DNA of 64,000 bases from Streptomyces sp. NBC_01260 (GTDB taxonomy: Bacteria; Actinomycetota; Actinomycetes; Streptomycetales; Streptomycetaceae). Shown one piece after another: positions 36,283 to 64,000 of this stretch. The stretch spans positions 3,348,001 through 3,412,000 of the forward strand of contig NZ_CP108464.1 in the NCBI RefSeq assembly GCF_036226405.1, in the 5' to 3' direction. The notes beneath the pieces were generated by a model, which saw only the letters and a program-made list of their open reading frames with translations, had not been told where the DNA came from and did not search any database. Position numbers and translations under genes: made by a program. Positions within the stretch are counted from its first letter, which is position 1. Each line of letters opens with the position of its first letter.

Positions 36283-36297
36283 CTGACGAACCGTCAG
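36283..36297. promoter_or_regulatory. Palindromic operator A (CTGACG-N3-CGTCAG)
   Basis: CTGACGAACCGTCAG, perfect 6-3-6 palindrome between the amidohydrolase gene (start 36261) and afsR (start 36498). On the minus strand TAGCTG precedes it, possibly the -10. Confidence 0.7.
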
Positions 36298-36497
36298 CTA
36301 TCTGTGCGAGGCTCCGTTCCACAATCGTTGTCGAGGGCTCGTGCAGAGAGTCACCCACTGCTGACGCGTCCCCCTTTCACAAGGCAGACTGTTGACGGCG
36401 ATACCAACGGTATGGAGCAATCCGGATCTCCTCGGCGGTGTCCCGACATGTGCGCAGCGGCACTGGGCAGTGGCGGAGAGCAGGACAGGAGGCGGCA

Positions 36498-39467
36498 ATG
36501 GGCCGTGACGACGGGCCACGGGTGCGTGTTCCGGAACAGCGAGCTCCGGAGCGACGGCCGGTGGACGGCACAGACCTGTACTTTTCCGTGCTCGGCCCGG
36601 TACGGGCCCGGCGGAACGGCGAGACGCTGCCGTCCGGTTCGCCGCAGCAGCGCGCCCTGTTGACCGCTCTCCTGCTGCGCGGCGGGCACACCGCCACGGC
36701 CTCCGAACTCATCGACGCCATCTGGGGCGACGAGCCGCCCTCGCAGGCGCTGGCCGCCGTGCGTACGTACGCCTCCCGGCTCCGCAAGATCCTGGGTCCG
36801 CAGACCCTGGCGAGCGATTCCGGCGGGTACGCGATGCGGACCGGGCCCGACGCCCTCGATGTGACCGTGGCCGAGGAACTGGCCGCCGGCGCCGACAAGG
36901 CCCGCACCGCGGGCGACCGGGGCCGGGCCAGGGCGCTGCTGAACAAGGCGCTCGCCCTGTGGGACGGCGAGGCGCTCGCCTCCGTGCCCGGCCCGTACGC
37001 CGAGAACCAGCGCACCCGGCTGGAGGAGTGGCGGCTCCAGCTCACCGAGACCCGCCTGGACCTGGACCTGGAGGTCGGCTGCCACGCGGAGGCGGTCTCC
37101 GAACTGACCGCGCTCACCGCCGCGCACCCGCTGCGCGAACGGCTGCGCGAGCTCCTGATGGTGGCCCTGTACCGCAGCGGCCGGCAGGCCGAGGCCCTCG
37201 CGGTGTACGCCGACACCCGCCGGCTGCTCGCCGAGGAACTGGGCGTCGACCCGCGCCCCGAACTCGCCCAGCTCCAGCAGCGCATCCTGCAGGCCGACGA
37301 GGAGCTGGCCCGCCCGGCCGACGACCCCACCCCGGCCGCCGCACCGGTGCGCCCCGCGCAGCTCCCGGCCACGGTGCCCGACTTCACCGGCCGCGCCTCC
37401 TTCGTACGCGAACTGGGCGACCGCATCGCCACCGCCGAGGGCTCCGTCATGGCCGTCTCCGCGCTGGCCGGCATCGGCGGCGTCGGCAAGACGACCCTCG
37501 CCGTGCACGTCGCCCACCAGGCCCGCAAGCACTTCCCGGACGGCCAGCTGTACGTCGACCTCCAGGGCGCGGGCTCCCGCGCCGCCGAACCGGAGACGGT
37601 CCTCGGTGCGTTCCTGCGCGCCCTGGGCACGGCGGACTCGGCGATCCCCGAATCCCTCGACGAACGCGCCGCGCTCTACCGCTCCACGCTCGACGGCCGC
37701 CGCATCCTGATCCTCCTGGACAACGCCCACGACGCGGCCCAGATCCGCCCCCTGCTCCCCGGTACGACGGGCTGCGCGGCGCTGGTCACCAGCCGGGTCC
37801 GGATGGTCGACCTGGCGGGCGCGCACCTGGTCGACCTGGACGTGATGTCGCCCGAGGAGGCGCTCCAGCTCTTCACCCGCATCGTGGGCGAGGAGCGCAT
37901 CAACTCCGAGCGCAAGGCGGCCCTGGACGTGGTCGCCGCCTGCGGCTTCCTCCCGCTGGCCATCCGCATCGCCGCCTCCCGCCTGGCCTCCCGCCGCACC
38001 TGGACGGTCTCGGTCCTGGCCGCCAAGCTCGCCGACGAACGCCGCCGCCTGGACGAACTCCAGGCGGGCGACCTCGCGGTGAAGGCCACCTTCGAACTCG
38101 GCTACGGCCAGCTGGAACCCGCCCAGGCCCGCGCCTTCCGCCTCCTGGGCCTCGCGGACGGCCCCGACATCTCCCTCGCCGCCGCGGCCGCCCTGCTGAA
38201 CCTGGAGGTGCACGCGGCGGAGGACCTCCTGGAGGCCCTGGTCGACACGTCCCTGGTGGAGTCGGCGGCCCCGGGCCGCTACCGCTACCACGACCTGGTG
38301 CGCCTCTACGCGCGTTCCTGCGCGGAGCGGGACGAGCAGCCGCCGGTGGAGCGGGAGCTGGCGCTGTCACGGCTGCTGGACTTCTACCTGGCCACGGCGG
38401 CGGGGGTGTACGCACTGGAGCGGCCGGGCGACCGGACGGTCAACCACCTGGAGCGCACCGAGCATCCCGGGCTGTCGTTCACCGACCACGGCCGGGCCCT
38501 GGACTGGCTGTACGCGGAGGCGAACCCACTCCTGGCATGCGTCCGGCAGAGCATCACCGCCACCACCATCCGGCGGGCCGTTGATCTCCTCCTCGCCTCC
38601 AAGGACCTCGCCGAGTCGGGTGCCAACTCACGCCAGTTCGAGTCGGTCGCCACCATCGTGCGGGATGCCGCGACCGTCACGGGTGACGCTCGTTCCGAGG
38701 CGAGGGCACGGACGACACTCGCCCAGGTGCACAGCACCGCGGGCCGTTTCGACCAGGCCGAGGACGAGGCCCGGCAGGCGATGGTCCTCGCGTCGTCGAT
38801 CGATGACATCTGGACCCACTGCAACGCTCCGAACGAGCTCGGGATCATCGCCGGATACCGCAACCGGCTCGACGAGGCGGAAGTCCTCCTCCAGCAGACC
38901 ATCACCGCCTTCCGGGCCGACACCAACCAAGCGGGCGAAGCCAGCGCGCTGTGCAATCTGTCCCGGGTCCACCTGGCCATCGGACGGACCGCGAGTGCCG
39001 TCGAGCTCGCCGGCCAGGGAATCGATCTCTACGCCCGGCTGGGCCTCACCCTGCGCCTGGCGAACGGCCGCTACGCCCTGGGACTCGCCCTGACCCGGGC
39101 GGGCCGGCAGAACGAGGCCGAGGGCCGCCTCTCCGAGGCGCTCACCGTCTTCCGGGAGAGCCGCCAGCGGCTGTGGGAAGGCATGACTCTCTTCAGGCTG
39201 GCCGAGGTACACCTCGCCGCTCAGCGTCCGGCCCGGGCCGCCGCGTTCTCCGAGCAGGCTCTGACGGTGCTGCTCCACATCGGCGGCGAGTGGCGTCGGG
39301 CCAACGTGCTGACCGTACTGGGCCAGGCCCTGGACGGCATCGGGCAGGCGGACCGGGCGAGTGTCTGCTGGCGGGAGGCGCTCGCGGTCTTCGATCAGTT
39401 GAAGGCTCCGGAGAGCGACATCGTCCGCGGCCTGCTCGCTCCGACGGTCTCACCGCAGAGACGCTGA
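36498..39467 (+). CDS. afsR: AfsR: SARP-family transcriptional activator with NB-ARC and TPR domains
   Basis: 989 aa. OmpR-like DNA-binding domain ~28-105 (FSVLGPVRARRNGETLPSGS ... YASRLRKIL), bacterial transcription-activation domain ~110-260 (RLRELLMVALYRSGRQAEAL), NB-ARC ATPase with P-loop GIGGVGKTT at ~325, and C-terminal TPR-like repeats ~690-980. In S. coelicolor, AfsR is phosphorylated by AfsK and activates afsS to raise secondary metabolism. Identity is supported by the AfsS-like gene directly downstream and afsK nearby. ATG 36498 follows AGGAGGCGGCA; an upstream start at 36438 is unsupported. Confidence 0.93.
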   Translation: MGRDDGPRVRVPEQRAPERRPVDGTDLYFSVLGPVRARRNGETLPSGSPQQRALLTALLLRGGHTATASELIDAIWGDEPPSQALAAVRTYASRLRKILGPQTLASDSGGYAMRTGPDALDVTVAEELAAGADKARTAGDRGRARALLNKALALWDGEALASVPGPYAENQRTRLEEWRLQLTETRLDLDLEVGCHAEAVSELTALTAAHPLRERLRELLMVALYRSGRQAEALAVYADTRRLLAEELGVDPRPELAQLQQRILQADEELARPADDPTPAAAPVRPAQLPATVPDFTGRASFVRELGDRIATAEGSVMAVSALAGIGGVGKTTLAVHVAHQARKHFPDGQLYVDLQGAGSRAAEPETVLGAFLRALGTADSAIPESLDERAALYRSTLDGRRILILLDNAHDAAQIRPLLPGTTGCAALVTSRVRMVDLAGAHLVDLDVMSPEEALQLFTRIVGEERINSERKAALDVVAACGFLPLAIRIAASRLASRRTWTVSVLAAKLADERRRLDELQAGDLAVKATFELGYGQLEPAQARAFRLLGLADGPDISLAAAAALLNLEVHAAEDLLEALVDTSLVESAAPGRYRYHDLVRLYARSCAERDEQPPVERELALSRLLDFYLATAAGVYALERPGDRTVNHLERTEHPGLSFTDHGRALDWLYAEANPLLACVRQSITATTIRRAVDLLLASKDLAESGANSRQFESVATIVRDAATVTGDARSEARARTTLAQVHSTAGRFDQAEDEARQAMVLASSIDDIWTHCNAPNELGIIAGYRNRLDEAEVLLQQTITAFRADTNQAGEASALCNLSRVHLAIGRTASAVELAGQGIDLYARLGLTLRLANGRYALGLALTRAGRQNEAEGRLSEALTVFRESRQRLWEGMTLFRLAEVHLAAQRPARAAAFSEQALTVLLHIGGEWRRANVLTVLGQALDGIGQADRASVCWREALAVFDQLKAPESDIVRGLLAPTVSPQRR

Positions 39468-39473
39468 CCCCGC

Positions 39474-39495
39474 GTTCATCGTTCGTTTATCGCCA
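39474..39495 (+). promoter_or_regulatory. AfsR/PhoP-type direct repeat in afsS promoter
   Basis: Two 11-nt direct-repeat units, GTTCATCGTTC (39474-39484) and GTTTATCGCCA (39485-39495), just after the afsR stop. Spacing and the GTTCATC core match the direct repeats over which AfsR and PhoP compete in the known afsS promoter. TCGTACCTGT about 15 nt downstream could hold the -10. Confidence 0.65.
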
Positions 39496-39583
39496 CCCGG
39501 CACTCTCGTACCTGTCGATGCGTCGCGTCGGGGGGCAGGCGAGTCGACAGTGGAACCGCACACTAAGGTGAACGGCTCTGAAC

Positions 39584-39623
39584 AGCCCGTCCGGCAACAC
39601 ACGGGGGAGTCGCCGGACGGGCT
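39584..39623 (+). promoter_or_regulatory. Hairpin in afsS leader
   Basis: Perfect 12-bp arms AGCCCGTCCGGC (39584-39595) and GCCGGACGGGCT (39612-39623), 16-nt loop, ending 39 nt before the afsS ATG. Could end afsR read-through or regulate afsS. Confidence 0.55.
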
Positions 39624-39662
39624 TTGCCGACTAACCATGCATCCAGCAACGGAGTTCACAGC

Positions 39663-39881
39663 ATGAGCGACGACAAGAAGACCCAGATACCCACACCGAA
39701 GTCCGGCACCACGGGCGACGTCAAGCCTGCGGACAGCCACATGACCGGCGAGCCCGAAGTCCAGGCGATGGACAGCCACATGACCGGCGAGCCCAAGGTC
39801 AAGCCGCTGGACAGCCACATGACCGGCGAGCCCGAGATCAAGCCGATGGACAGCCACATGACCGGCGCCGACCCGCGCTGA
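39663..39881 (+). CDS. afsS: AfsS small regulatory protein with DSHMTG repeats
   Basis: 72 aa, no enzymatic domain. Four copies of DSHMTG at a 13-residue (39-nt) period, spaced by EPEVQAM, EPKVKPL and EPEIKPM. S. coelicolor AfsS is a 63-aa protein with three such repeats that stimulates antibiotic synthesis downstream of AfsR; the extra repeat explains the greater length. ATG 39663 follows AACGGAG. It is preceded by AfsR/PhoP-type repeats and a leader hairpin. Confidence 0.92.
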   Translation: MSDDKKTQIPTPKSGTTGDVKPADSHMTGEPEVQAMDSHMTGEPKVKPLDSHMTGEPEIKPMDSHMTGADPR

Positions 39882-40074: not shown

Positions 40075-41637
40075 TCAGCCCCCCGCACGCCCCCGCAGCT
40101 CCCCCTTCACCACCTTGCCGCCCGCGTTGCGCGGCAGCTCCGTCACGAACTCCACCGCCCTGGGCACCTTGTAGTTCGCCATCTCGCGCCGCGACCAGGC
40201 GATCAGGTCGTCGGCGGTCACCGTCGAGCCCGGGCGGCGCACCGCGTACGCCTTGCCGACCTCGCCGAGGCGGGGGTCGGGGATGCCGATGACCGCGACG
40301 TCGGCCACGTCCGGGTGCAGGCCCAGGAGCTGTTCGATCTCCGCGGGGTAGGCGTTGAAGCCGCCGACAATGAACATGTCCTTGATCCGGTCCGTGATCC
40401 GCAGGCTGCCGTCCTCCTCCAGGACGCCCACGTCGCCGGTGTGCAGCCAGCCGTCCGAGGTGATCGTGGCGGCGGTGGTCGCCGGGTCCTCGAAGTAGCC
40501 ACGCATCACGTTGAAGCCGCGGACCAGGACCTCGCCCGGTTCGCCGGGGGCCGCCAGGACGCGTATCTCGGTGCCGGGGATCGCCCGGCCGGAGGTGGAG
40601 GCGATGACCTCCGCCGGGTCGCCGCGGCGGCACATCGAGACGATGCCGCTCGCCTCGGAGAGGCCGTAGGCGGTCAGGACCGTGGCGATGCCGAGTTCGG
40701 TGCGCAGGCGCTCCACCAGCTGGAGCGGGACCACCGCCGCGCCCGTCACGACCAGGCGGAGCGCCGAGAGGTCGTGGCTGGAGCGGGCCGGGTGGTCCAG
40801 GAGCGACTGGTGGAGGGTGGGCGGGCCGGGGAGGACCGAGATGCGCTCCGCGGCGATGTTGGCGAGGACCGTGTCCACGTTGAACACCGGCTGCGGGATC
40901 ATCGTCGCGCCCCGCATCAGGCACGCGATGACGCCCGCCTTGTAGCCGAAGGTGTGGAAGAACGGGTTCACGATCAGATAGCGGTCGCCCTCGCGCAGAC
41001 CGGCCAGCTCGCTCCAGATCTCGTAGCAGCGCAGGGTCTGGGCATGGCTGATGACCGCGCCCTTGGGGCGTCCCGTGGTGCCCGAGGTGTAGATGATGTC
41101 GGAGGGGGCGGACGATGAGATCGCGTCCGCCCGTTCGCGTACTCGCTCGGAGGAGATCCGCTCCCCGCCGGCCAGGAAGTCCTTCCAGGTGACGTAGTCG
41201 GCGGGGGCGGTGTCGGCGAGGACCACCACCGTTTCCAGGTGCGGGAGTTCGATGTCGGCGCGGCGCAGGGACGCCACGTACGACGTGCCGAGGAAGGTGC
41301 CCGTGACGAAGAGCAGCTTCGCCCGGCTCCGCTCCAGGACGTACGCCGCCTCCGTGCCCTTGAAGCGGGTGTTGAGCGGGACCAGGACCGCGCCGGCCGT
41401 CACCGCGCCCAGCGCGGAGACGATCCAGTCCAGGGTGTTCGGCGCCCAGACCGCCACCCGGTCCCCCGGTTCCACCCCCGAGGCCATGCACGCGGCGGCG
41501 GCCCGCTCCACGCGCTCGCCGAGTTCCGTGTAGGTGATCCTGGCGCGGCCCTCGACCACCGCCTCGCGGTCGCCGTACCGCCGCGCCGCCTCCCGTACCA
41601 GGTTCGGGACGGTGGACCATTCCTCGTCGCCGCGCAT
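40075..41637 (-). CDS. Acyl-CoA ligase, FadD3-like (AMP-forming)
   Basis: 520 aa. Adenylate-forming signatures: P-loop YTSGTTGRPKGAVISH (~185), FFHTFGYKAG, TAYGLSEASG, GWLHTGDVG and RITDRIKDMFIVGGFNAYPAEIE. FFHTFGYKAG, LPGPPTLHQSLLDHPAR and the overall pattern resemble FadD3, the mycobacterial ligase for the steroid C/D-ring propionate, more than generic fatty-acid ligases. This family call is from memory of the sequence and needs alignment. Diverges from the thiolase gene; operator B lies between. Confidence 0.88.
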   Translation of the reverse strand: MRGDEEWSTVPNLVREAARRYGDREAVVEGRARITYTELGERVERAAAACMASGVEPGDRVAVWAPNTLDWIVSALGAVTAGAVLVPLNTRFKGTEAAYVLERSRAKLLFVTGTFLGTSYVASLRRADIELPHLETVVVLADTAPADYVTWKDFLAGGERISSERVRERADAISSSAPSDIIYTSGTTGRPKGAVISHAQTLRCYEIWSELAGLREGDRYLIVNPFFHTFGYKAGVIACLMRGATMIPQPVFNVDTVLANIAAERISVLPGPPTLHQSLLDHPARSSHDLSALRLVVTGAAVVPLQLVERLRTELGIATVLTAYGLSEASGIVSMCRRGDPAEVIASTSGRAIPGTEIRVLAAPGEPGEVLVRGFNVMRGYFEDPATTAATITSDGWLHTGDVGVLEEDGSLRITDRIKDMFIVGGFNAYPAEIEQLLGLHPDVADVAVIGIPDPRLGEVGKAYAVRRPGSTVTADDLIAWSRREMANYKVPRAVEFVTELPRNAGGKVVKGELRGRAGG

Positions 41638-41670: not shown

Positions 41671-41685
41671 CTGACTATCCGTCAG
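41671..41685. promoter_or_regulatory. Palindromic operator B
   Basis: CTGACTATCCGTCAG: 11 of 12 bases of CTGACG-N3-CGTCAG, in the 102-bp gap between the divergent ligase (start 41637) and thiolase (start 41740). Confidence 0.68.
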
Positions 41686-41739: not shown

Positions 41740-42888
41740 GTGGCGACGCTCAAGGACAAGACAGCGATAGCCGGGATAGGTCAGACGCGGTTCGCGAAAC
41801 ACCTGCCCGAGTCGGAGAAGACCCTGGCCTGCCGGGCCATCGTCGCGGCGCTCGACGACGCGGGCATCGCCGCGTCGGAGGTGGACGCGTTCGCCTCGTA
41901 CACGATGGAGGAGACCGACGAGGTCGAGGTCGCCAAGTCCATCGGGGCCGGCGATGTCACCTTCTTCAGCAAGGTGGGCTACGGGGGCGGCGGTTCCTGC
42001 GCGACGCTCGCGCACCTCGCCGCCGCCGTGGCGACCGGGCAGGCGAGTGTGGGGGTCGCCTGGCGGTCGCGGAAGCGGGGGTCGGGGCCCCGGCCCTGGA
42101 AGAACACCGCCGTGCAACTGCCCACCCCCGCGCAGTGGACCCGGCCCTACGGGCTGCTTCGGCCCGCCGACGAGATCGGGATGCTGGCCCGGCGGTACAT
42201 GCACGAGTACGGCGCGACCCGCGACCATCTCTTCAACGTGGCGCTGGCCTGCCGCAACCGGGCCAACCAGAATCCCGACGCGGTGATGTACGAGCGGCCG
42301 CTGACCCGCGACATGTATATGACCTCGCGCTGGATCAGCGAACCGCTCTGCCTCTTCGACAACTGCCTGGAGACGGACGGTGCGCTGGCCTGTGTCATCG
42401 TCTCCGCAGAACGGGCCCGCGACTGCCGGCAGAAGCCCGTCTACCTCCACTCCGTCGCCCAGGGGCTGCCCGCCCAGCACCACGGGATGGTCAACTACTG
42501 GAACGACGACCCGCTCACCGGTCCGGCCTGGGCCGCCGCCCGCCAGCTGTGGAAGCAGGCCGATTTCGGACCGGACGACGTCGATGTCGCCCAGATCTAC
42601 GACGCGTTCACCCCGCTCATCCCGCTCTCCCTGGAGGGGTACGGATTCTGCGGCCGCGGCGAGGGCGCCGCGTTCACCGAGGGCGGGGCCCTGGAGAGCG
42701 GGGGCCGGCTGCCCATCAATACGGGTGGCGGCGGGCTCAGCGAGGGGTACGTGCACGGCTTCAACCTCATCAACGAGGGCGTGAAGCAGTTGCGCGGCGT
42801 CTCCACCGCCCAGGTCCCGGACGCCTCGACCTGCCTGGTCACCGCCGGTGAGGGCGTGCCCACATCCGCCGTACTGCTGAGGAGCTGA
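41740..42888 (+). CDS. Thiolase-fold protein (SCP-x / Ltp type)
   Basis: 382 aa. Lipid-transfer-protein-type thiolase: KTAIAGIGQTRFAKHLPES at the start, the nucleophile-loop region GYGGGGSCATLAHLAAA (Cys87), VDVAQIYDAFTPLIPLSLE and INTGGGGLSEGYVHG. In this family partners with a DUF35 protein (next gene, 5 nt away) act either as thiolases or as retro-aldolases in steroid side-chain removal. The GTG start follows GGAGGTGGCGG. Under operator B. Confidence 0.88.
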   Translation: MATLKDKTAIAGIGQTRFAKHLPESEKTLACRAIVAALDDAGIAASEVDAFASYTMEETDEVEVAKSIGAGDVTFFSKVGYGGGGSCATLAHLAAAVATGQASVGVAWRSRKRGSGPRPWKNTAVQLPTPAQWTRPYGLLRPADEIGMLARRYMHEYGATRDHLFNVALACRNRANQNPDAVMYERPLTRDMYMTSRWISEPLCLFDNCLETDGALACVIVSAERARDCRQKPVYLHSVAQGLPAQHHGMVNYWNDDPLTGPAWAAARQLWKQADFGPDDVDVAQIYDAFTPLIPLSLEGYGFCGRGEGAAFTEGGALESGGRLPINTGGGGLSEGYVHGFNLINEGVKQLRGVSTAQVPDASTCLVTAGEGVPTSAVLLRS

Positions 42889-42893
42889 CCGAG

Positions 42894-43334
42894 ATGGATG
42901 CCATGCTGCTGCCCGCCGTGGACGAGGACGGCACGCCCTTCTGGGAGTACGCGGCCCGCGGTGAACTGCGCGTCCAGGCGTGCGCCGCCCCGGAGTGCGG
43001 CCGGCTCCGCTTCCCGCCCCGGCCGTGCTGCCCGCACTGCCAGTCGTTCGAGAGCGAGTGGCGGGCGATGAGCGGGCGCGGCCGCATCTGGTCGTACGTG
43101 CTGCCGCATCCGCCGCTGCTGCCCGCCTACGCGGCGCAGGCCCCGTACAACGCGGTGGTGGTCGAACTGGCCGACGCCCCGGAGATCCGGCTGGTCGGCA
43201 ATGTGGTGACCGGGCCGGACGCACCACTGAACTCGGTGGACCCGGGCCGGCTGCGGATCGGGGCGGCGGTGAAGGCGGTCTTCTGCCCCGTCTCCCCCGA
43301 AGTGACCCTGGTCCGCTGGCTGCTGGAGCGGTGA
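42894..43334 (+). CDS. DUF35 zinc-ribbon OB-fold protein, partner of the thiolase
   Basis: 146 aa. Rubredoxin-like zinc ribbon CAAPECGRLRFPPRPCCPHC (residues ~30-50), then an OB-fold acyl-CoA-binding domain (GRGRIWSYVLPH ... PYNAVVVELADAPEIRLVGNVV). DUF35 proteins form complexes with Ltp-type thiolases or MaoC-like hydratases. Five nt after the thiolase stop and 6 nt before the hydratase gene, so one operon. Confidence 0.9.
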   Translation: MDAMLLPAVDEDGTPFWEYAARGELRVQACAAPECGRLRFPPRPCCPHCQSFESEWRAMSGRGRIWSYVLPHPPLLPAYAAQAPYNAVVVELADAPEIRLVGNVVTGPDAPLNSVDPGRLRIGAAVKAVFCPVSPEVTLVRWLLER

Positions 43335-43340
43335 CCGGCG

Positions 43341-44123
43341 ATGGCGCTGCGCACGGAGACGGACAAGGCGACCGGGGTCGCGCTGCTCACCCTGGACCGG
43401 CCTGCGAGGCTCAACGCGATCGACCTCGCGACGGCCGCCGAACTGGCCGCCGCCTGGCGGGCGTTCCGCTATGACGAGGGGGTGCGGGCCGTCGTCGTGA
43501 CCGGCGCCGGCGGCCGGGCGTTCTGTACCGGGATCGATCGCGGCGTGGACGTCCCGCAGCCCTCGTCCCCGTACACGATCGACGATCCGCTGATCGCGAT
43601 CGGGCCGAAGGCGAACGACCTGTGGAAGCCGGTGATCGCGGCCGTGGAGGGGATGGCCTGCGGTGGGGCCTTCTACCTGCTGGGCGAGTCGGAGTTCGTC
43701 ATCGCGTCCGAGGAGGCGACGTTCTTCGACCCGCACACCACGTACGGCATGGTCAGCGCCTACGAGGCGATCTCGATGGCGCAGCGGATGCCGTTCGGCG
43801 AGGTCGCCCGGATGTCCCTGATGGGGACGGCCGAACGGGTCACGGCCCGTCGCGCGTACGAGACCGGGCTGGTCAGCGAGGTCACCGAGCCCGGCGGCGC
43901 GGTCCCGGCGGCGCTGCGGGCGGCGGCGGTCATCGCCTCGTACCCGACCGCGGCGGTGCAGGGGACGGTACGGGCCGTCTGGTCCGCGAAGGAGGCGGCG
44001 AGAACGCAGGCACTGGCCCATGCCCCGCACCTGATCGCGCTCGGCAACCTGGCGCCGGAGCGGCAGGCGGAGCTGTTCGGGGAGCGGGGCAGGGGGGCCG
44101 GTGGTGAGTACCGCCTGCGGTGA
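43341..44123 (+). CDS. Enoyl-CoA hydratase/isomerase family protein
   Basis: 260 aa crotonase fold. LDRPARLNAIDLATAAELA, the CoA/oxyanion region GRAFCTGID and the second oxyanion segment MACGGAFYLLGESEFVIASE. At the place where classical hydratases have PE(x)G with a catalytic Glu, this protein has FFDPHTTYGMVSA, so the reaction may not be simple hydration. Third gene of the thiolase operon. Confidence 0.88.
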   Translation: MALRTETDKATGVALLTLDRPARLNAIDLATAAELAAAWRAFRYDEGVRAVVVTGAGGRAFCTGIDRGVDVPQPSSPYTIDDPLIAIGPKANDLWKPVIAAVEGMACGGAFYLLGESEFVIASEEATFFDPHTTYGMVSAYEAISMAQRMPFGEVARMSLMGTAERVTARRAYETGLVSEVTEPGGAVPAALRAAAVIASYPTAAVQGTVRAVWSAKEAARTQALAHAPHLIALGNLAPERQAELFGERGRGAGGEYRLR

Positions 44124-45705: not shown

Positions 45706-48090
<2,385 letters not shown>

Positions 48091-48269
48091 CACTTACCTG
48101 CCACCCTCCCCGTACGGACCTCAGTCGACAGAGGCCCGCGAAAAACCGCCCTGTGCAGCGTCTCACCACTGGGCACCACCCGACGGTGCGCACCCCGATT
48201 GTTCCTGGCCGAGGCGCCGGTTGCGAACCCGGGGGCAGAACCGGGTGTCATGGATCACTCCGGGCGGTA

Positions 48270-49070: not shown

Positions 49071-49381
49071 CGGCCCGGATCCTTCCGTCGCGGTGACGCT
49101 CGTCACACCCAACGTAACCGCGCGTCGCGTTGACCGCGCCCCGGACCTTTTCATGCGAACACATTTTCGATATCAAGGTCACCGAACCCCGCCGTCACGG
49201 AAAGTTATCCACGGAAGTTATCCACAGGCTGTTCATAACATTAGCCAGACTGTGGGGAACCGGGTGCGAAGCCATGGACACATGGCCGGATATCCCCTCA
49301 CTCCCCCCCGCCCCGCCTGCGGCCCTCCCCATTTGCAGTCGGCCGAATCGCGCTCCGATCACCCGTCGGTAAGCTGACGGC
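49071..49381. other. VOC / TetR divergent intergenic region with DnaA-box-like sequences
   Basis: 311 bases without a gene, AT-richer than average. Contains TTATCCACG (49205-49213) and TTATCCACA (49218-49226) in tandem, and TTCCCCACA on the minus strand (49251-49259). Promoters of both flanking genes must lie here. Confidence 0.55.
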
Positions 49382-49388
49382 ATGACAG
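49374..49388. promoter_or_regulatory. Weak operator-like site overlapping TetR start
   Basis: CTGACGGCATGACAG: 10 of 12 fixed bases of CTGACG-N3-CGTCAG, spanning the ATG at 49382. If real, it would allow autoregulation. Alone it could be chance. Confidence 0.35.
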
Positions 49389-50029
49389 GACAAGTACGCA
49401 CCGTCGACGGCCGCGTGGCCGGTCGACGCGGACAGGCGACGCGGCAGAAGCTGCTCGACTGCCTCAGCGAGATGCTCAGCTCCTCGCCGTACCGGGACGT
49501 CAAAGTCATCGACGTCGCCCGGAAGGCGGGGACTTCACCCGCGACCTTCTATCAATACTTCCCCGACGTCGAGGGCGCCGTCCTCGAAATCGCCGAAGAG
49601 ATGGCCAAGGAGGGCGCCGGCCTGACCGAACTGGTCGCCGGGCGCTCCTGGGTCGGCAAGTCGGGCTGGCAGACCGCCGAAGAACTCGTCGAGGGATTCC
49701 TCGACTTCTGGCGGCGCAACGACGCGATCCTCCGCGTGGTCGACCTCGGCGCGGCCGAGGGCGACAAACGGTTCTACAAGATCCGTATGAAGATCCTCAA
49801 CTCCGTCACCAACTCCCTTACGGATTCGGTGAAGGAGCTCCAGTCCAAGGGCAAGGTGGACAAGGACATCAACCCCGCGGCGATGGCCGGCTCCCTGGTA
49901 GCGATGCTGGCCGCGGTCGCCTCGCACCAGAAGGGCTTCACCACCTGGGGTGTGAAGCAGGCCGAACTCCGGCCGAACCTCGCGCTGCTGGTGCATCTGG
50001 GCATCACCGGCAAGAAGCCGGTGAAGTAG
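49382..50029 (+). CDS. TetR-family transcriptional regulator
   Basis: 215 aa. N-terminal HTH ~20-65 (GQATRQKLLDCLSEMLSSSP ... VARKAGTSPATFYQYFPD) and a helical ligand domain. Lies in the middle of the operator-linked catabolic genes and is a candidate regulator of the CTGACG-N3-CGTCAG set; likely effector an acyl-CoA, by analogy with KstR/KstR2-type TetRs. Converges on the F420 reductase gene across a strong terminator. Confidence 0.9.
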   Translation: MTGQVRTVDGRVAGRRGQATRQKLLDCLSEMLSSSPYRDVKVIDVARKAGTSPATFYQYFPDVEGAVLEIAEEMAKEGAGLTELVAGRSWVGKSGWQTAEELVEGFLDFWRRNDAILRVVDLGAAEGDKRFYKIRMKILNSVTNSLTDSVKELQSKGKVDKDINPAAMAGSLVAMLAAVASHQKGFTTWGVKQAELRPNLALLVHLGITGKKPVK

Positions 50030-50183: not shown

Positions 50184-50681
50184 TCACACGGAATCGCCCC
50201 GCCGCTCCAGCCGGAACAGCCGGATCTCGCGGTCGATCCGCGCCTGGTACGCCGCGTAGGGCGGCCAGAACTTCAGCGCCGCCTCCCACACCGCCGCCCG
50301 CTCGGCACCCGCCAGCAGCCGGGCCCGTACCGGAATGTCGCGGCCCTTCCAGCTGATGACGGCCGCCTCCGGATGCGCCAGCAGGTTCGCCGTCCAGGCC
50401 GGGTGCCCCGTACGGCCGAAGTTGCTGCCGACCAGGATCCAGCTGCCCGGGTCACCGTCCCCGCGTTCCGGCATACAGGCCAGCGGGGTGGTCCTGAGCT
50501 GTCCGCTGCGCGCCCCCGGCACCGTCAGGACCACCCCCGGCAGCATCTGCGCGCTGAGCAGCACCCGGCCGCGGGTGAGCCGGTGGACGGTCCGGTCCAT
50601 GGCCGGTACGAGATGGGGTGCGATCCGGGCGAAGGCCCGGGTCGAGGAGACCTTCTGGACGAGGCGGACGCCGGGCGCCAT
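50184..50681 (-). CDS. Nitroreductase family deazaflavin (F420)-dependent oxidoreductase
   Basis: 165 aa split-barrel protein of the DUF385/Ddn type. Signatures: LLSAQMLPGVVLTVPGARSG, LRTTPLACMPERGDG and WILVGSNFGRTGHPAWTANLLAHPEA. The family uses F420H2 to reduce enones or quinones. Its ATG overlaps the acyl-CoA dehydrogenase stop by one base, so the two are translationally coupled and probably act in the same pathway. Confidence 0.86.
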   Translation of the reverse strand: MAPGVRLVQKVSSTRAFARIAPHLVPAMDRTVHRLTRGRVLLSAQMLPGVVLTVPGARSGQLRTTPLACMPERGDGDPGSWILVGSNFGRTGHPAWTANLLAHPEAAVISWKGRDIPVRARLLAGAERAAVWEAALKFWPPYAAYQARIDREIRLFRLERRGDSV

Positions 50682-51931
50682 CAGACCGCCACCCGATCGG
50701 CCGGTCCCGCTTCGGCCGGTCCTTGTTCGGACGGTCCCGCCGTGTCCGGACCGGGGCCGAAGAGTCCGGCCCGCCGGGCCGCGTGGTCGCGGAGCCGGTG
50801 GACCGGGCCCAGGAGCAGTTCGTCGGCGGCGGCCCGCTTGAAGTACAGGTGCGCCTCGTGCTCCCAGGTGAAGCCGATGCCCCCGTGCAGCTGCACGGCC
50901 TCGGCGGTGGTGACCCGCAGGGCCTCCAGCGCCTGGGCGAGGGCGAGCCCGCCGGCCTCCGGGTCCCAGGCCGCGTAGTACGCCGCGGAGCGGGCCGACT
51001 GCACCCGTACGTACAGATCGGCGAGGCGGTGCTTCACGGCCTGGAAGGAGCCGATCGCACGGCCGAACTGCTCGCGCTCCCCGACGTAGGCGACCGTCCG
51101 CTCCAGCGCGCTCGCCGCCGCCCCCACCGCCTCGGCGGCGAGCGCCGCGGCGGCGGCGCGGCCGGCCACGGCGAGGGCCGCCGTCGCGTCCACGGTGTCG
51201 TCGGCGCCGAGGAGTTCGGCCTCGGTGTCGCGCAGCTGGACGCGGGCGAGCGGCCGGGTCTCGTCGAGTGCGGTCTGCCGGGTGCGGACGAGTCCGGCGG
51301 GCGCCTGCGGCCCGTCCGTCCGGACCAGGAACAGCAGGGTGCGGCTGCGCGGGAAGCCGCCCGTGTGCGCGGCGACCAGGAGCAGTCCGGCGCTGTGCCC
51401 GTCCAGCACCTGGTCGGCCTCTCCGTACAACCGCCACCCCCCGTCGCCGCCGGCCGGCCGGGCCTGGACTCCGCCCGCCCGGCCGCCGCCCGCCCAGCTG
51501 CCGCCGGTGAGGTCGCCGGTGAGGCCGAGGGCGGTGGAGAGCGAGCCGCCGGGCACGGCCAGCGCCGCGGTGAGCTCGCCCGCCGCGACGGCCGGCAGCA
51601 GGGCGGTGCGCTGCTCCTCGGTGCCGAGCGCCGCGATCAGGGGCGCGGCGAGTACGGCGGTGGCGAGCAGCGGGGACGGCAGCAGCGCGCGGCCCGCCTC
51701 CTCGCAGACCACGGCGAGCTCGGCGGGGCCGCAGCCGGCACCTCCGTACTCCTGCGGGAGGGCGAGTCCGGGCAGCCCGAGGCCCTGGGCGAGCCGGCGC
51801 CACAGCGCGGCGTCGTACCCCTCCCGCGTACCCACCGCGCTCCTGACGTCGTCGGGGCCGCTGTGTCTGGCCAGCAGTTCGCGCACGGTGCGGCGGATCT
51901 CGTCCTGTTCCGCGGTGAAGGCGGCATCCAT
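50681..51931 (-). CDS. Acyl-CoA dehydrogenase
   Basis: 416 aa. N-terminal MDAAFTAEQDEIRRTVRELL, middle LGLPGLALPQEYGGAGCGP, and C-terminal VYGREQFGR-like VGEREQFGRAIGSFQAVKHRLAD and LHGGIGFTWEHEAHLYFKRA. The divergent middle domain (Gly/Ala-rich, residues ~150-180) suggests a FadE subunit of the kind found in heteromeric steroid-type dehydrogenases. ATG 51931 follows GGAAGGAG. Under operator C. Confidence 0.88.
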   Translation of the reverse strand: MDAAFTAEQDEIRRTVRELLARHSGPDDVRSAVGTREGYDAALWRRLAQGLGLPGLALPQEYGGAGCGPAELAVVCEEAGRALLPSPLLATAVLAAPLIAALGTEEQRTALLPAVAAGELTAALAVPGGSLSTALGLTGDLTGGSWAGGGRAGGVQARPAGGDGGWRLYGEADQVLDGHSAGLLLVAAHTGGFPRSRTLLFLVRTDGPQAPAGLVRTRQTALDETRPLARVQLRDTEAELLGADDTVDATAALAVAGRAAAAALAAEAVGAAASALERTVAYVGEREQFGRAIGSFQAVKHRLADLYVRVQSARSAAYYAAWDPEAGGLALAQALEALRVTTAEAVQLHGGIGFTWEHEAHLYFKRAAADELLLGPVHRLRDHAARRAGLFGPGPDTAGPSEQGPAEAGPADRVAV

Positions 51932-51970: not shown

Positions 51971-51985
51971 CTGACGGGCCGTCAT
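51971..51985. promoter_or_regulatory. Palindromic operator C
   Basis: CTGACGGGCCGTCAT, 11 of 12 consensus bases. On the minus strand a TAGCAT -10-like hexamer abuts it, so a bound repressor would cover the acyl-CoA dehydrogenase promoter. Confidence 0.68.
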
Positions 51986-52069: not shown

Positions 52070-52093
52070 TAGAATCTGATGTACCGTCAGATT
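52070..52093 (+). promoter_or_regulatory. -10 TAGAAT plus palindromic operator D
   Basis: TAGAAT (52070-52075) is followed at once by CTGATGTACCGTCAG (52076-52090). The dyad extends to 9-3-9 with flanking AAT/ATT (52073-52093) and one mismatch. The ATG of the next gene is at 52095, so the transcript is nearly leaderless and the operator covers the start point. Confidence 0.72.
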
Positions 52094-52094
52094 C

Positions 52095-53264
52095 ATGCCC
52101 TCTTCCCACCGCAAGGTCGCTGTCGTCGGCATATCCCTCGCCGACTGCGGACGCGTCGACACGGCCACGCCGTACGCCCTGCACGCCCAGGCCGCCCGCC
52201 GGGCGCTCGCCGACTCGGGTCTGGACCGGTCGGTCGTCGACGGGTTCGCCTCCGCCGGACTCGGCACGCTCGCCCCGGTCGAGGTCGCCGAGTACCTGGG
52301 GCTGAAACCCACCTGGGTGGACTCCACCTCGGTCGGCGGATCGACCTGGGAGGTGATGGCGGCCCATGCGGCGGACGCCATCGCGGCGGGCCGCGCCAAC
52401 GCCGTACTGCTGGTGTACGGGTCGACGGCACGGGCGGACATCAAGGCGGGGCGCCGCACGTCCAACCTCTCCTTCGGGGCCCGCGGCCCGCTCCAGTTCG
52501 AGGTGCCGTACGGGCACTCGCTGATCGCCAAGTACGCGATGGCCGCCCGCCGCCACATGCACGAGTACGGCACCACCCTGGAGCAGCTCGCCGAGGTGGC
52601 GGTACAGGCCCGCGCCAACGCGGCCGCCAACCCGGACGCGATGTTCCGCGAGCCGGTCACCGTGGACGAGGTGCTGTCCGGCCCGATGATCGCCGACCCG
52701 TTCACCAAACTGCACTGCTGCATCCGCAGCGACGGCGGCTGCGCGGTGCTGCTGGCCGCCGAGGAGTACGTGGCGGACACGGCGAAGGAACCGGTCTGGA
52801 TTCTCGGCACCGGCGAGCACGTCTCGCACTCCGCCATGTCCGAGTGGGACGACTTCACGGTCTCCCCCGCCGCCGTCTCGGGCCGGCTGGCCTTCGAGCG
52901 GGCGGGGGTGCGGCCCGCCGACATCGATCTGGCCGAGATCTACGACGCCTTCACCTATATGACGCTGGTGACGCTGGAGGACCTGGGATTCTGCGCGAAG
53001 GGCGAGGGCGGCGCGTACGTCGAGAAGGGCCGCACCGGCCTGACGGGCGAGCTCCCGGTGAACACCGACGGGGGCGGCCTCTCCGCCTGCCACCCCGGGA
53101 TGCGCGGGCTGTTCCTGCTGGTGGAGGCGGTACGCCAGCTGCGCGGCGAGGCGGGGGCGCGCCAGGTCCGCAAGGCGGGCGGCCGGCTGCCGGAGCTGGC
53201 GGTGGCGTCGGGGACGGGCGGCTGGTTCTGCTCGTCGGGGACGGTGGTGCTGGGGCGGGGGTGA
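52095..53264 (+). CDS. Thiolase-fold protein lacking the nucleophilic cysteine (Ltp type)
   Basis: 389 aa. Same family as the gene at 41740 (YDAFTYMTLVTLEDLGFCAKGEGG, VNTDGGGLSACHPGMRG), but the nucleophile-loop region reads STSVGGSTWEVMAAHAADA with no Cys. It is thus more likely a retro-aldolase-type Ltp protein or thiolase-like subunit than a Claisen thiolase. No ribosome-binding site; start 19 nt after the end of a TAGAAT box. Under operator D. Confidence 0.86.
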   Translation: MPSSHRKVAVVGISLADCGRVDTATPYALHAQAARRALADSGLDRSVVDGFASAGLGTLAPVEVAEYLGLKPTWVDSTSVGGSTWEVMAAHAADAIAAGRANAVLLVYGSTARADIKAGRRTSNLSFGARGPLQFEVPYGHSLIAKYAMAARRHMHEYGTTLEQLAEVAVQARANAAANPDAMFREPVTVDEVLSGPMIADPFTKLHCCIRSDGGCAVLLAAEEYVADTAKEPVWILGTGEHVSHSAMSEWDDFTVSPAAVSGRLAFERAGVRPADIDLAEIYDAFTYMTLVTLEDLGFCAKGEGGAYVEKGRTGLTGELPVNTDGGGLSACHPGMRGLFLLVEAVRQLRGEAGARQVRKAGGRLPELAVASGTGGWFCSSGTVVLGRG

Positions 53265-53720: not shown

Positions 53721-53991
53721 GCACGCGCTCCCAGGGATCGTCGTCCCCGGCCCGGTCCTCGTCACCGAAGAGCTCGTCCGCCTCGCGACGCATCAACGCA
53801 CCGTCCACGCGGGGAAGCCGCCGGTGCCGGGCCACCAGTTCCTCGGCACTCAGCCTCCGCTTACGCGTGAGCGGCCTGAGCTCCGCGACCTCTATCCCGT
53901 TTCGGGTGATGTGGAAGATCTCGCCCTCCTCCACAGCGTTCATGACATCCGCGGACCGGTTCCGGAACTCGCGCTGCGTGATGGTCTTCAT
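53713..53991 (-). CDS. Phd/YefM-family antitoxin
   Basis: 92 aa. Phd fold at the N-terminus ([24 protein letters not shown] ... [14 protein letters not shown]), with an acidic C-terminal tail ([19 protein letters not shown]) that should wrap the toxin. First gene of the pair and expected to autorepress. Upstream at 54001-54027 an inverted repeat GTAGC...GCTAC is a possible operator. Confidence 0.88.
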
Positions 53992-60740: not shown

Positions 60741-61523
60741 CTACGAGGGCCGGACGGTGAGGATCTGCTGGGCCTGGCCGACGGGTCCGTTGATGTCGTG
60801 CAGGACGGTGCTGGTGATGCCCTGGCCCGTCGGACCGAAGACGACCGTGGTGTCGAGCCCGGTCCAGCGGCCTTCGGGCTGCCGGTGCAGGTGGATGGTC
60901 AGGTCGACGTTGGGGAACGTCCAGGCGCCGGGCTGCTGGCGTACGGCGATGCCGTTGGCCGTGTCGACGAGCGCGATGTAGGACGCGAGCGTGCTGACGG
61001 GCTCACCCGCGACGAGGTCGAGGGGCGTGGAGATCCAGGCCGTCGTACGGCCCGGCCGGGGCGGCGCGAGCGGGCGGACGTCGATGGACGCGATGTAGCC
61101 GCCGGGCCAGACGTCGGCCATGGCCCAGGGCGCGAGTGCCTCGGGGGCCGTGAGCCGGTCGGCGGCACCCCCGGCGACGGCGTCGGTGTCGCCGGAGGCG
61201 AGGCACCAGGCCCTGGCACGTACGACGGGTCGGTCGGCGATGAGGGCGACGGCTTCGACCAGTTCGATGGTGCGGCCGGGGCGGATGGTCTCGACCCGGA
61301 TCTCGCACTCGTCGAGGGCGAGCCGGCCCAGGATGTCGAAGCTGATCCGGGACAGCAGCAGGCCGGTTCCCGGCCGGTCGGCCAGGTGCCGGTCGATGGC
61401 GTGGACGACGAGGCCGCCGAGCGGGCTGAAGTGCACTTCGTCCGTGCTCCACGCACCGCTCGCGTGGGCGGTGGGCTTGTAGCGGTGTGCGTCGATGCGC
61501 TCGTAGTAGCTGCCGGTGTTCAT
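60741..61523 (-). CDS. Acyl-CoA thioesterase family protein (TesB-like double hotdog)
   Basis: 260 aa. Two hotdog halves: N-terminal SYYERIDAHRYKPTAHASGAWS and GLVVHAIDRHL ... LLLSRISFDILG; C-terminal GEPVSTLASYIALVDTANGI and FPNVDLTIHLHRQPEG with the active-site-type Asp. Would hydrolyse acyl-CoA, fitting the catabolic set. Lies 89 nt downstream of the OB-fold gene with a hairpin between. Confidence 0.85.
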   Translation of the reverse strand: MNTGSYYERIDAHRYKPTAHASGAWSTDEVHFSPLGGLVVHAIDRHLADRPGTGLLLSRISFDILGRLALDECEIRVETIRPGRTIELVEAVALIADRPVVRARAWCLASGDTDAVAGGAADRLTAPEALAPWAMADVWPGGYIASIDVRPLAPPRPGRTTAWISTPLDLVAGEPVSTLASYIALVDTANGIAVRQQPGAWTFPNVDLTIHLHRQPEGRWTGLDTTVVFGPTGQGITSTVLHDINGPVGQAQQILTVRPS

Positions 61524-61541
61524 CGGGTGCGTACCTCGCGG

Positions 61542-61579
61542 CCGTGCGGATCAGGGAACCTCAGCCTGACACCGCACGG
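61542..61579 (-). terminator. Hairpin between OB-fold and thioesterase genes
   Basis: CCGTGCGG (61542-61549) pairs with CCGCACGG (61572-61579), 22-nt loop. Weak terminator or processing site. Confidence 0.4.
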
Positions 61580-61612
61580 TCGCCGGCCGGCGCCCGGGTC
61601 CCCCGCAGCGCC

Positions 61613-62077
61613 CTACGGCCGGAACACCGCCACCGCCTCGCGCCCCTCCTCCTCCCGGAACGTCACCCGGAGCTCCATGCCGATGGCGAGCGCGGACTCC
61701 TCGCACTCCACGACCTCCGTCATCATCCGCGGCCCCTCGGCCAGGTCGACGACGGCCGCGACGTACGGCACGCGGGTGCCGAACGGCGGCAGGTCGTTGC
61801 GGTGGACGACGGACCAGGTGTAGAGCGTGGCCCGGCCGCTCGCCCGCTCCCAGGCGACGTCCTCGCTCCAGCAGTGCGGGCAGAACTCGCGCGGGTAGTG
61901 GTGCGCCCGGTCGCAGCCCCGGCAGCGGCGCAGCAGCAGGTGGCCCTCGGCGGCGGCGTCCCAGTAGGGGCGGGTGGACGCGTCCGGCTCCGGCAGGTCG
62001 TACCGGGGGGCCGGCGCGGTGGACGTCCGGGGGGCCGGCGCGGTGGACGTCCGGGGGGCCGGTGGGGTCGCCGTCAC
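61613..62077 (-). CDS. DUF35 zinc-ribbon OB-fold protein, second copy
   Basis: 154 aa from GTG 62077, which overlaps the DoxX stop (GTGA). N-terminal tandem repeat APRTSTAP x2 (24-nt repeat at 62008-62056), then DASTRPYWDAAAEGHLLLRRC, the zinc ribbon CRGCDRAHHYPREFCPHC and an OB-fold (GRATLYTWSVVH ... PYVAAVVDLAEGPRMMTEVV). It could serve the Cys-less thiolase at 52095, which lacks an adjacent DUF35 gene. Under operator E through doxX. Confidence 0.87.
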   Translation of the reverse strand: MTATPPAPRTSTAPAPRTSTAPAPRYDLPEPDASTRPYWDAAAEGHLLLRRCRGCDRAHHYPREFCPHCWSEDVAWERASGRATLYTWSVVHRNDLPPFGTRVPYVAAVVDLAEGPRMMTEVVECEESALAIGMELRVTFREEEGREAVAVFRP

Positions 62078-62526
62078 AGGAAGAGTCCGATCGCGTGGTC
62101 GAGGGACCAGGTCTGCCAGGACATCGCGAACAGTGCGACGAGGGAGATCAGCGCCATCATCGCGTTCTGCCCCTGCTCGGCCCAGTCGTGGATCATCAGC
62201 ACCAGGTAGAGCAGGTTGAGCAGGAGTCCCGCGATCAGGGCGACCGGGGTCAGGAGTCCGGTCACCAGGCCGAGCCCCAGGGCGAGTTCCGCGTAGACGA
62301 CGATGTACGCCATCGCCTTCGGGCGCGGTGCGACGATCTTCTCGAAGCCGCCGCGCACCACCGGCCAGCGGTGCTTCCCGGCGACGTCCGCGGCCCAGGC
62401 GATGCCGGTGCCGCGCTCGAACCAGCCCTTCTTGTCCTTGTGCCGCCAGCTCTCCAGCCACCACAGGCCGAGGCCTATCCGGAGCACGGCGAGCCACTCG
62501 GCTCCGTCGAGCCAGATCGTCCGCAT
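62074..62526 (-). CDS. DoxX family membrane protein
   Basis: 150 aa, about four hydrophobic helices (e.g. AYIVVYAELALGLGLVTGLL, LIAGLLLNLLYLVLMIHDW). DoxX-like proteins accompany quinone- or sulfur-linked oxidoreductases; WLESWRHKDKKGWFERG is typical of the actinobacterial branch. ATG 62526 follows GGGAGGGCCCC. First gene of an operon with the OB-fold protein. Confidence 0.86.
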   Translation of the reverse strand: MRTIWLDGAEWLAVLRIGLGLWWLESWRHKDKKGWFERGTGIAWAADVAGKHRWPVVRGGFEKIVAPRPKAMAYIVVYAELALGLGLVTGLLTPVALIAGLLLNLLYLVLMIHDWAEQGQNAMMALISLVALFAMSWQTWSLDHAIGLFL

Positions 62527-62548: not shown

Positions 62549-62563
62549 CTGACGGTACGTCAG
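62549..62563. promoter_or_regulatory. Palindromic operator E (perfect)
   Basis: CTGACGGTACGTCAG, all 12 fixed bases, 23 nt upstream of doxX and 112 nt upstream of the divergent FMO gene. Confidence 0.72.
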
Positions 62564-62674
62564 TTCACCTGATGGCGGCGGGCTGCGCAAGGGGTGCGCA
62601 CCCGTGATCAATTCGCAATCGATTCCGGTCTTGACCGAGACCCATCAAGAGGGCGCGCGATTACGCTCCAAACC

Positions 62675-63862
62675 ATGCCCGACAGCACATCCACCCCCGG
62701 TAGCCCCATTCCGGCCCCCACGGACCTCACCGAGGGCCGCCCCGTCTACGTCATCGGCGGCGGTCCGGGCGGTCTCGCAGTCGCGGCGGCCCTGCGCGCA
62801 CAGGGCCAACGGGCCGTCGTGCTGGAGAAGTCCGCGGACGTCGGCGCGTCCTGGCGGGGCCACTACGACCGGCTGCACCTGCACACCACCCGGCGCTGGT
62901 CCGCCCTCCCGGGGCTGGCCATGCCCCGCCGGTTCGGCCGCTGGGTGTCCCGCGACAACGTGGTGCGCTACCTGGAGAAGTACGCCGAGCACCACGAGCT
63001 GGAAGTGGTGACGGGCGTCGAGGTGTCCCGCATCGACCGGGCGCCGGACGGCACCGGGTGGCGGCTGACCGCGACCGGCGGCCGTGAACTGACCGGCCGG
63101 GCCGTGGTCGTGGCCACCGGCTTCAACCACACCCCGCGCATCCCCGACTGGTCCGGGCGCGACACCTTCACCGGCGGACTCGTACACGCCGCCGACTACC
63201 GCAACCCGGCCCCCTACGCGGGCAAGGACGTCCTCGTCGTGGGCGTCGGCAACACGGGGGCGGAGATCGCCGTCGACCTGGTGGAGGGCGGCGCCTCACG
63301 GGTGCGGCTCGCGGTGCGCACCGTCCCGCACATCCTGCGCCGCTCCACGGCGGGCTGGCCCGCCCAGGGCACCGGCATCCTGGTGCGCCGGCTGCCGGTC
63401 GCCCTCGTGGACCGGGCCGGGGGGCTGCTGACCCGCGTCTCCATGCCCGACCTCGCCGAACACGGACTGCCCCGCCCGGACACCGGCCTGTACTCACGGG
63501 TCAAGGACGGCGCCATTCCGGTCCAGGACGTGGGGCTGGTCAACGCGGTGAAGGGCGGCCGGGTGGTGCCGGTGGCGGCCGTCGAGTCGTTCGACGAGGA
63601 CGCGGTGGTACTGGCGGACGGCACCCGGATCACCCCGGACGCGGTCATCGCCGCGACCGGCTATCTGCGCTCCCTGGAGGGGCTGGTCGGCCACCTCGGC
63701 GTACTGGACGCCCGGGGCCGGCCGGTGGTGCACGGCGGCCGCACGCCGAGGCAGGCACCCGGGCTGTACTTCACCGGGTTCACCAACCCGATCAGCGGCA
63801 TGCTCCGCGAACTGGCCCGGGACGCGGAGAAGATCGCCAAGAAGCTGGCCCGCACCCGCTGA
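62675..63862 (+). CDS. Flavin-containing monooxygenase-like NAD(P)/FAD oxidoreductase
   Basis: 395 aa. FAD Rossmann motif YVIGGGPGGLAVAAALRAQG (~25), GASWRGHYDRLHLHT (FMO/Baeyer-Villiger-like), ATG motif VVVATGFNHTPRIPDW, NADPH motif VLVVGVGNTGAEIAVDL (~185) and late AATGYLRSLEGLVG. Likely an N- or C-oxygenase or a ring-opening Baeyer-Villiger-like enzyme. ATG 62675; an in-frame start at 62594 lacks support. Shares operator E with doxX. Confidence 0.88.
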   Translation: MPDSTSTPGSPIPAPTDLTEGRPVYVIGGGPGGLAVAAALRAQGQRAVVLEKSADVGASWRGHYDRLHLHTTRRWSALPGLAMPRRFGRWVSRDNVVRYLEKYAEHHELEVVTGVEVSRIDRAPDGTGWRLTATGGRELTGRAVVVATGFNHTPRIPDWSGRDTFTGGLVHAADYRNPAPYAGKDVLVVGVGNTGAEIAVDLVEGGASRVRLAVRTVPHILRRSTAGWPAQGTGILVRRLPVALVDRAGGLLTRVSMPDLAEHGLPRPDTGLYSRVKDGAIPVQDVGLVNAVKGGRVVPVAAVESFDEDAVVLADGTRITPDAVIAATGYLRSLEGLVGHLGVLDARGRPVVHGGRTPRQAPGLYFTGFTNPISGMLRELARDAEKIAKKLARTR

Positions 63863-63904
63863 CCCGCCACCGCCCACCCGCGACCCCACCCGCCGCACCC
63901 ACCC

Positions 63905-63937
63905 GCAGCCCCCGTCGGACGCCCCGGCGGGGGCTGC
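63905..63937 (+). terminator. Terminator after FMO gene
   Basis: GCAGCCCCCG (63905-63914) pairs perfectly with CGGGGGCTGC (63928-63937), 13-nt loop; 42 nt after the stop. Confidence 0.8.
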
Positions 63938-63988
63938 GGCGACCCGGCCCAAAACCGCCACTCTCAGGCTTTGCCTGCACACCCATTC

Positions 63989-64000
63989 CTGACGGGCCGT
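63989..64000. promoter_or_regulatory. Palindromic operator F, cut by window edge
   Basis: CTGACGGGCCGT: the first 12 bases of the 15-bp operator, ending at the last base of the window. All nine fixed bases present match. Confidence 0.5.

Follow-up and report, generated by a model that had tools for sequence, protein, structure and literature searches.

Our best explanation of a palindrome that recurs in a 64,000-nucleotide stretch of the Streptomyces sp. NBC_01260 genome (positions 3,348,001 to 3,412,000 of contig NZ_CP108464.1, here called the window) is that CTGACGNNNCGTCAG, often A-T-flanked, is the operator of a TetR-family repressor. A PF19352 protein encoded in the same window would read this operator, be released by a ligand, and thereby control scattered loci for catabolism of coenzyme A (CoA) thioesters. 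We consider this explanation, taken as a whole, highly probable. The sites, their intergenic placement, their conservation, the classes of the genes that follow them and the co-occurrence of motif and TetR gene were all computed directly.

With at most one mismatch allowed, the window holds five copies of CTGACG-N3-CGTCAG, where dinucleotide shuffles give an expectation of 0.47 ± 0.70, and none of 100 such shuffles yields five or more. Two copies are perfect (36283 and 62549) and three have 11 of the 12 fixed bases (41671, 51971 and 52076), exactly as a sequence-only reading of the window had placed them. A partial site which that reading reported at 63989, cut by the window end, is CTGACGGGCCGTCAG in the whole-genome sequence and thus a perfect match, and a second site with one mismatch begins 24 bp beyond it. 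Sites also come in pairs at 51971/52076, 63989/64013 and 90410/90498 (window-scale coordinates, continued past the window end). The same reading had put the complete sites 5' of functionally related genes, and all five are indeed intergenic and stand before the genes it named (Table 1).

The genome as a whole (9.28 Mb) contains 12 exact copies of the motif and none of the reversed pattern. Fifty sites were tracked in full: 45 of the form CTGAYNNNNCGTCAG, for which the reversed control gives 6, plus five other one-mismatch sites (L013, L014, L015, L087 and L088). Genes were called by a codon-usage caller trained on the surrounding 140 kb, a region with a coding share of 85%. Thirty-six of the 45 CTGAYNNNNCGTCAG sites are intergenic and nine lie in predicted genes (binomial P = 3e-22); outside the cluster 9 of 36 are coding (P = 9e-16). 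A comparison with coding sequence across the genome had been proposed by the sequence-only reading, and the motif proves strongly depleted there. Its remark that genes contain no copies is right for the window's near-perfect sites but fails genome-wide. Intergenic and coding sites also differ in their oriented flanks, with a T beside the site in 26 of 43 flanks of intergenic sites and in 1 of 18 for coding ones.

The regulon is larger than first reported. The cluster extends past the window, with 11 sites of at most one mismatch between 36283 and 90512 (window scale), none of them in a predicted gene. Beyond the window end, one set of genes behind the sites has an ADP-forming-type acyl-CoA ligase and, after it, an enoyl-CoA hydratase; another is an SDR gene opposite an HsaB-like flavin reductase (185 bits, where 230 is the cut-off). 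Elsewhere there, SDR, acyl-CoA dehydrogenase and alcohol dehydrogenase genes with a site before them lie opposite a PF04199 cyclase, and a further amidohydrolase, accompanied by two acyl-CoA dehydrogenases, lies opposite a further acyl-CoA ligase. Another 22 sites lie off the cluster, in 20 promoter regions with a start codon no more than 250 bp downstream, and at 14 of these 20 a target encodes a CoA- or redox-catabolic enzyme: LLM flavin or F420-type enzymes, acyl-CoA dehydrogenases, an SDR, an acyl-CoA ligase, a MaoC hydratase, CYP125 with a divergent steroid-type thiolase, and proteins of old-yellow-enzyme type, ferredoxin-reductase type, DUF35 and enoyl-CoA hydratase families. The remaining six regions precede Ser/Thr-kinase-like, integrase-like and peptidase-like genes (all three assigned by eye), an NlpC/P60 protein, a protein without a Pfam match, and a frame of 46 amino acids. 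At one off-cluster locus (L089) two site pairs, 43 and 62 bp apart, lie before LLM-type genes at genome positions 4736565-4738555, and the LLM gene is followed at 4739904-4743112 by amidohydrolase-like and aldehyde-dehydrogenase-like genes (by eye); a similar pair of genes, again by eye, flanks a site in the distant genome G395.

The sites are kept before orthologues of their targets. We compared the best 80 of 580 confirmed relatives of the TetR locus (79 titled Streptomyces, one Streptosporangium), counting a site when it had at most one mismatch and lay within, or next to, the 250 bp before the orthologue. Such a site accompanies all 43 FadD orthologues, all 47 of thiolase-like A (45 of 47 when the range searched is narrower), all 63 of acyl-CoA dehydrogenase and all 66 of thiolase-like B. 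It stands before none of the control genes in these loci: afsK 0/50, kbpA 0/60, the PNPOx-like gene 0/61, the operon-internal F420-type reductase 0/67, the HtpX-like gene 0/24 and the P450 gene at 55 kb 0/8. The reversed pattern appears in 1 of 47 thiolase A and 1 of 61 PNPOx cases, and in none for the remaining genes. For CYP125, encoded 2.6 Mb away from the cluster, 47 of the 61 Streptomyces searched have a match; in the promoters of the 30 best loci from these 47 genomes a site with at most one mismatch occurs in 28, with at most two in all 30, and the reversed control in none. In another family of the same order the syntenic cluster carries nine sites in the genome labelled G020 and seven in G024, none in predicted genes, and over 31 genomes of the order there are 392 exact sites and 5 reversed ones. 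The sequence-only reading had looked to conservation in orthologous promoters of other streptomycetes, and it is found both there and in a second family.

That reading had also predicted a single TetR-like repressor, which it did not name; the protein at 49382-50029 fits, and is very probably the reader of the motif. Its N-terminal helix-turn-helix (PF00440) scores 26.8 bits (cut-off 24.0) and its C-terminal domain PF19352 (TetR_C_38) 245.6 bits (cut-off 23.9), and this genome has just one gene of the family, while 14 control genomes gave no match. A protein of S. laculatispora shares 99% identity with it. Its predicted structure is an all-helical fold of ten helices with a mean predicted local distance difference test score (pLDDT) of 93.9, and the top structural matches are TetR-family repressors. 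By the kbpA-afsK synteny only, the gene is very probably the orthologue of SCO4421 of S. coelicolor.

The distribution of this gene follows that of the motif. Its orthologue sits inside the G020 and G024 clusters, and it is present in 30 of the 31 genomes of the order, the sole genome without it having no exact site. We extended the comparison to 396 genomes of the phylum, 20 of them from the genus, taking E below 1e-12 as a strong PF19352 match; the survey scored at most 10 candidates per genome, and some PF19352 genes may thus be missed. All 20 genomes of the genus have the TetR gene, with 1 to 20 exact sites each. Among the 376 others, at least four exact sites occur in 13 of 21 genomes with the TetR gene and in 5 of 355 without (Fisher p = 4e-15), in a test that counted 11 weak PF19352 matches as without and, to its disadvantage, ignores phylogeny. 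The distant TetR neighbourhoods tell the same in finer detail: in 26 of them, of 6-20 kb and drawn from all 21 non-genus TetR genomes, 18 have a site with at most one mismatch and one has the reversed pattern, which corresponds to 34 sites against a single reversed one, with exact sites in 11 loci against none.

Some distant genomes carry the site at the promoter of the TetR gene itself. In the first 17 distant loci, which cover 15 of the 21 genomes and are mostly site-rich, a site lies no more than 100 bp upstream of the gene in four: an exact one at 37 bp in G158, and others at 19 bp in G305, 21 bp in G236 and 93 bp in G282, where the TetR start was perhaps called too late. In Streptomyces the copy CTGACGNCATGACAG lies over the TetR start codon in 80 of 80 loci, as it does in G020 and G024. 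The 50 bases before the start and the first codons (49331-49420) are almost invariant in the 80 loci, beyond what an operator needs. Because the surrounding bases are almost invariant too, the degenerate copy proves little alone. A conserved WhiA-like GACAC box was not found upstream of the TetR gene in the loci compared.

Several observations weigh against our reading. Eight of the 26 distant TetR neighbourhoods have no site, and some genomes with the TetR gene are poor in sites: G078 has no exact copy (and a stop in the TetR frame), while G046, G069, G375 and the congener G324 have one each. Three of the 12 exact sites in the present genome look unconnected, one lying in a gene, one being without a target and one standing before the integrase-like gene. 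Among the alternatives, the motif could be a chance or compositional pattern. At up to three mismatches the window has no surplus (40 sites where 70 are expected), so its signal is confined to near-perfect sites; at up to one mismatch the excess over the genome is modest, 108 sites against 46 of the reversed control, so many of the one-mismatch sites are due to chance. The exact counts, the intergenic bias, the conservation and the co-occurrence with the TetR gene all oppose this view, and a motif without function is hardly conceivable to us; for the near-perfect intergenic sites, a chance origin is ruled out by the exact counts, their intergenic position and their conservation before orthologues. 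It is decidedly unlikely, in our judgement, that the regulon is real while a different regulator reads the operator, whether that is the MerR-like protein at 34144-34971 (type assigned by eye) or some other TetR protein. Such a reader would suit the Streptomyces TetR gene, which bears only a copy with two mismatches, and five genomes (G183, G126, G088, G104 and G227) that have 4 to 7 exact sites and no PF19352 match. We looked in these five for a divergent TetR relative, and in each the best match has a recognition helix other than SPATFYQYF; their sites may have another reader, may be due to chance, or may go with a PF19352 gene that was missed. What speaks against a different reader is the co-occurrence outside the genus, the strong excess of sites around distant TetR genes, and the sites at the gene's own promoter in G158, G305, G236 and perhaps G282.

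The protein might also read the operator in another capacity, as an activator, or as a repressor serving mainly sporulation rather than as a catabolic repressor released by its substrate. In the excerpted text of PMC3878966, SCO4421 depends on whiA and is active in spores and not in vegetative hyphae, as such a role would have it. The targets, however, are catabolic enzymes, and the sites lie so close to the starts (half of 43 distances are 57 bp or less, the minimum being 4 bp) that blocking is favoured; we think this alternative unlikely.

A repressor relieved by a hydrophobic ligand is instead most likely, because the site-to-start distances are short and the fold is nearest to that of EthR, a protein with a hydrophobic ligand tunnel. 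Here we infer that the protein binds the sites and that it represses rather than activates, and we likewise infer what its ligand and substrate are. Specifically, a TetR dimer would occupy the sites near the target start codons and block transcription, the bound dimer being close to the starts of both transcription and translation since half of the distances are so short. We claim no -10 element adjoining the sites, having looked for one by eye. A hydrophobic pathway intermediate, probably the acyl-CoA thioester of a bulky isoprenoid-type or steroid-like acid, would then free the protein and switch on the genes for ligase, dehydrogenase, hydratase, Cys-less thiolase-like, SDR, LLM and P450 enzymes together.

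Judged by their sequence matches, the targets look like enzymes of steroid side-chain catabolism. The steroid or isoprenoid flavour noticed in the first reading is supported by the FadD3-family ligase, by a steroid 3-ketoacyl-CoA thiolase (NF005889, 696 bits, cut-off 515) and by the CYP125 match at 2e-155. Its call of a Cys-less thiolase was correct: in a three-sequence alignment with a FadA5-type thiolase, the proteins encoded at 41740 and 52095 both have no Cys in the nucleophile column. The best PDB match of thiolase-like A is 6ok1, a lipid-transfer protein that we take to be the Ltp2 aldolase, and a DUF35 gene follows downstream. No convincing KshA, the ring-opening oxygenase, came to light: one Rieske protein has a KshA_C domain (73 bits) but matches solved KshA only at 1e-23 and over its first half. 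A more speculative proposal, which we hold to be rather doubtful, is that an ancient actinobacterial regulon, present in Streptomyces although most of them reportedly lack steroid catabolism, degrades an isoprenoid-type substrate so far unrecognised, possibly one of the cell's own such as hopanoid-like lipids, with CYP125 starting the side-chain chemistry. Its repressor, produced in spores from a gene of the afsR-afsS-afsK-kbpA locus, would then tie this catabolism to development and antibiotic control.

Table 1. Operator sites, putative targets and proposed regulator in the window (window coordinates).
Feature	Position	Strand	Remark
Operator, perfect	36283..36297	.	21 bp before amidohydrolase start
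Amidohydrolase (PF04909), putative target	35029..36261	-	Pfam; site kept in 2/2 loci reaching amidohydrolase
Operator, 1 mismatch	41671..41685	.	Between divergent FadD and thiolase-like A
FadD3-family acyl-CoA ligase, putative target	40075..41637	-	NF005801, 823 bits, cut-off 657
Thiolase-like A, first gene of putative target operon	41740-42888	+	Operon 41740..44123
DUF35/ChsH2-type, same operon as thiolase-like A	42894-43334	+	
Enoyl-CoA hydratase, same operon as thiolase-like A	43341-44123	+	
TetR regulator, PF19352, proposed operator reader	49382..50029	+	SCO4421 orthologue by synteny
Degenerate operator copy, 2 mismatches, CTGACGNCATGACAG	49374..49388	.	Overlaps TetR start codon; possible autoregulation
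Operator, 1 mismatch	51971..51985	.	Before acyl-CoA dehydrogenase
Acyl-CoA dehydrogenase, putative target	50681-51931	-	Operon 50184..51931
F420H2-type reductase	50184-50681	-	Operon with acyl-CoA dehydrogenase
Operator, 1 mismatch	52076..52090	.	4 bp before thiolase-like B
Thiolase-like B without nucleophilic Cys, putative target	52095..53264	+	
Operator, perfect	62549..62563	.	Between divergent genes
DoxX-like, putative target	62074-62526	-	Just below Pfam cut-off; one-strand genes 60741..62526
DUF35/ChsH2-type, putative target	61613-62077	-	One-strand genes 60741..62526
Acyl-CoA thioesterase-like, putative target	60741-61523	-	One-strand genes 60741..62526
FMO-like flavoprotein, putative target	62675..63862	+	Start perhaps further upstream
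Operator cut by window end	63989..64000	.	With second site 24 bp on; before ADP-forming-type acyl-CoA ligase

The operons of CoA catabolism are interleaved with afsR and afsK, which encode antibiotic regulators, with kbpA, and with the gene of a small repeat protein that by eye is AfsS-like (36561-39881 and 45706-49070). AfsR, AfsK and KbpA all exceed their NCBIfam cut-offs, and the genes of KbpA (276 bits, cut-off 250) and AfsK (1557 bits, cut-off 1300) adjoin the TetR gene. The site at 36283 sits between the amidohydrolase gene and afsR. Among six afsR promoters within reach, none has a site with at most one mismatch and one has a site with at most two, and we therefore do not call afsR a target. 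Straight after thiolase-like B, on the minus strand at 53316-53991, are a small PIN-type protein and an antitoxin-like partner (by eye), and beyond the window a run of genes of gas-vesicle type (window scale 73796-79773, L016, by eye) lies within the region of the regulon cluster.

A text excerpt of PMC4810484 reports 55 of 57 Streptomyces genomes as lacking the steroid pathway, and if our explanation is true, a regulon of this kind exists in that very genus. A conserved orphan regulator beside the kinase AfsK would also gain a function, an operator and a list of targets, and the explanation would join scattered CoA, P450 and F420-type enzymes in one regulon.

Comparison with known systems begins with two regulators of related genes. 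CYP125 is a target of KstR and the FadD3 gene a target of KstR2, and the regulon described here includes a FadD3-family ligase. Among the 23 PDB sequences matched by the TetR profile there is no chain named KstR. The mycobacterial KstR regulon resembles ours in that a TetR-type repressor recognizes a short palindrome in many promoters of lipid degradation genes, and the KstR site overlaps the putative -10 region of KstR's own promoter, as given in the excerpt of PMC1995591; the KstR operator there is TnnAACnnGTTnnA, which differs from CTGACGNNNCGTCAG here. KstR2 is likewise a TetR-type repressor of cholesterol genes, but the partial text of PMC3068626 gives its operator as AnCAAGnnCTTGnT in three promoter regions, whereas here there are dozens of sites of another sequence. 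The conserved operator is thus CTGACGNNNCGTCAG and neither of the other two, which were not themselves searched for in this genome. SCO4421 has the same neighbours as the window gene, AfsK and KbpA by NCBIfam. Passages of PMC3878966 describe it as a TetR gene near afsK that is induced in sporulation, being lower in a whiA mutant and active in spore chains, and mention a deletion strain without phenotype; the operator and regulon come from the present analysis. EthR of M. tuberculosis has the nearest fold (TM-score by query 0.78-0.79 for the top matches) and gives the best PDB profile matches, but it has only 16-17% identity with the window protein. Its own operator and target are not known to have any relation to this regulon. 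Searches of the open-licence PMC literature with the motif strings, PF19352, motif halves combined with TetR, and wider queries did not find the regulon. Dispersed CoA-catabolic regulons under a TetR repressor are a known kind of system; what appears to be new is this particular regulator, with this operator and this regulon.

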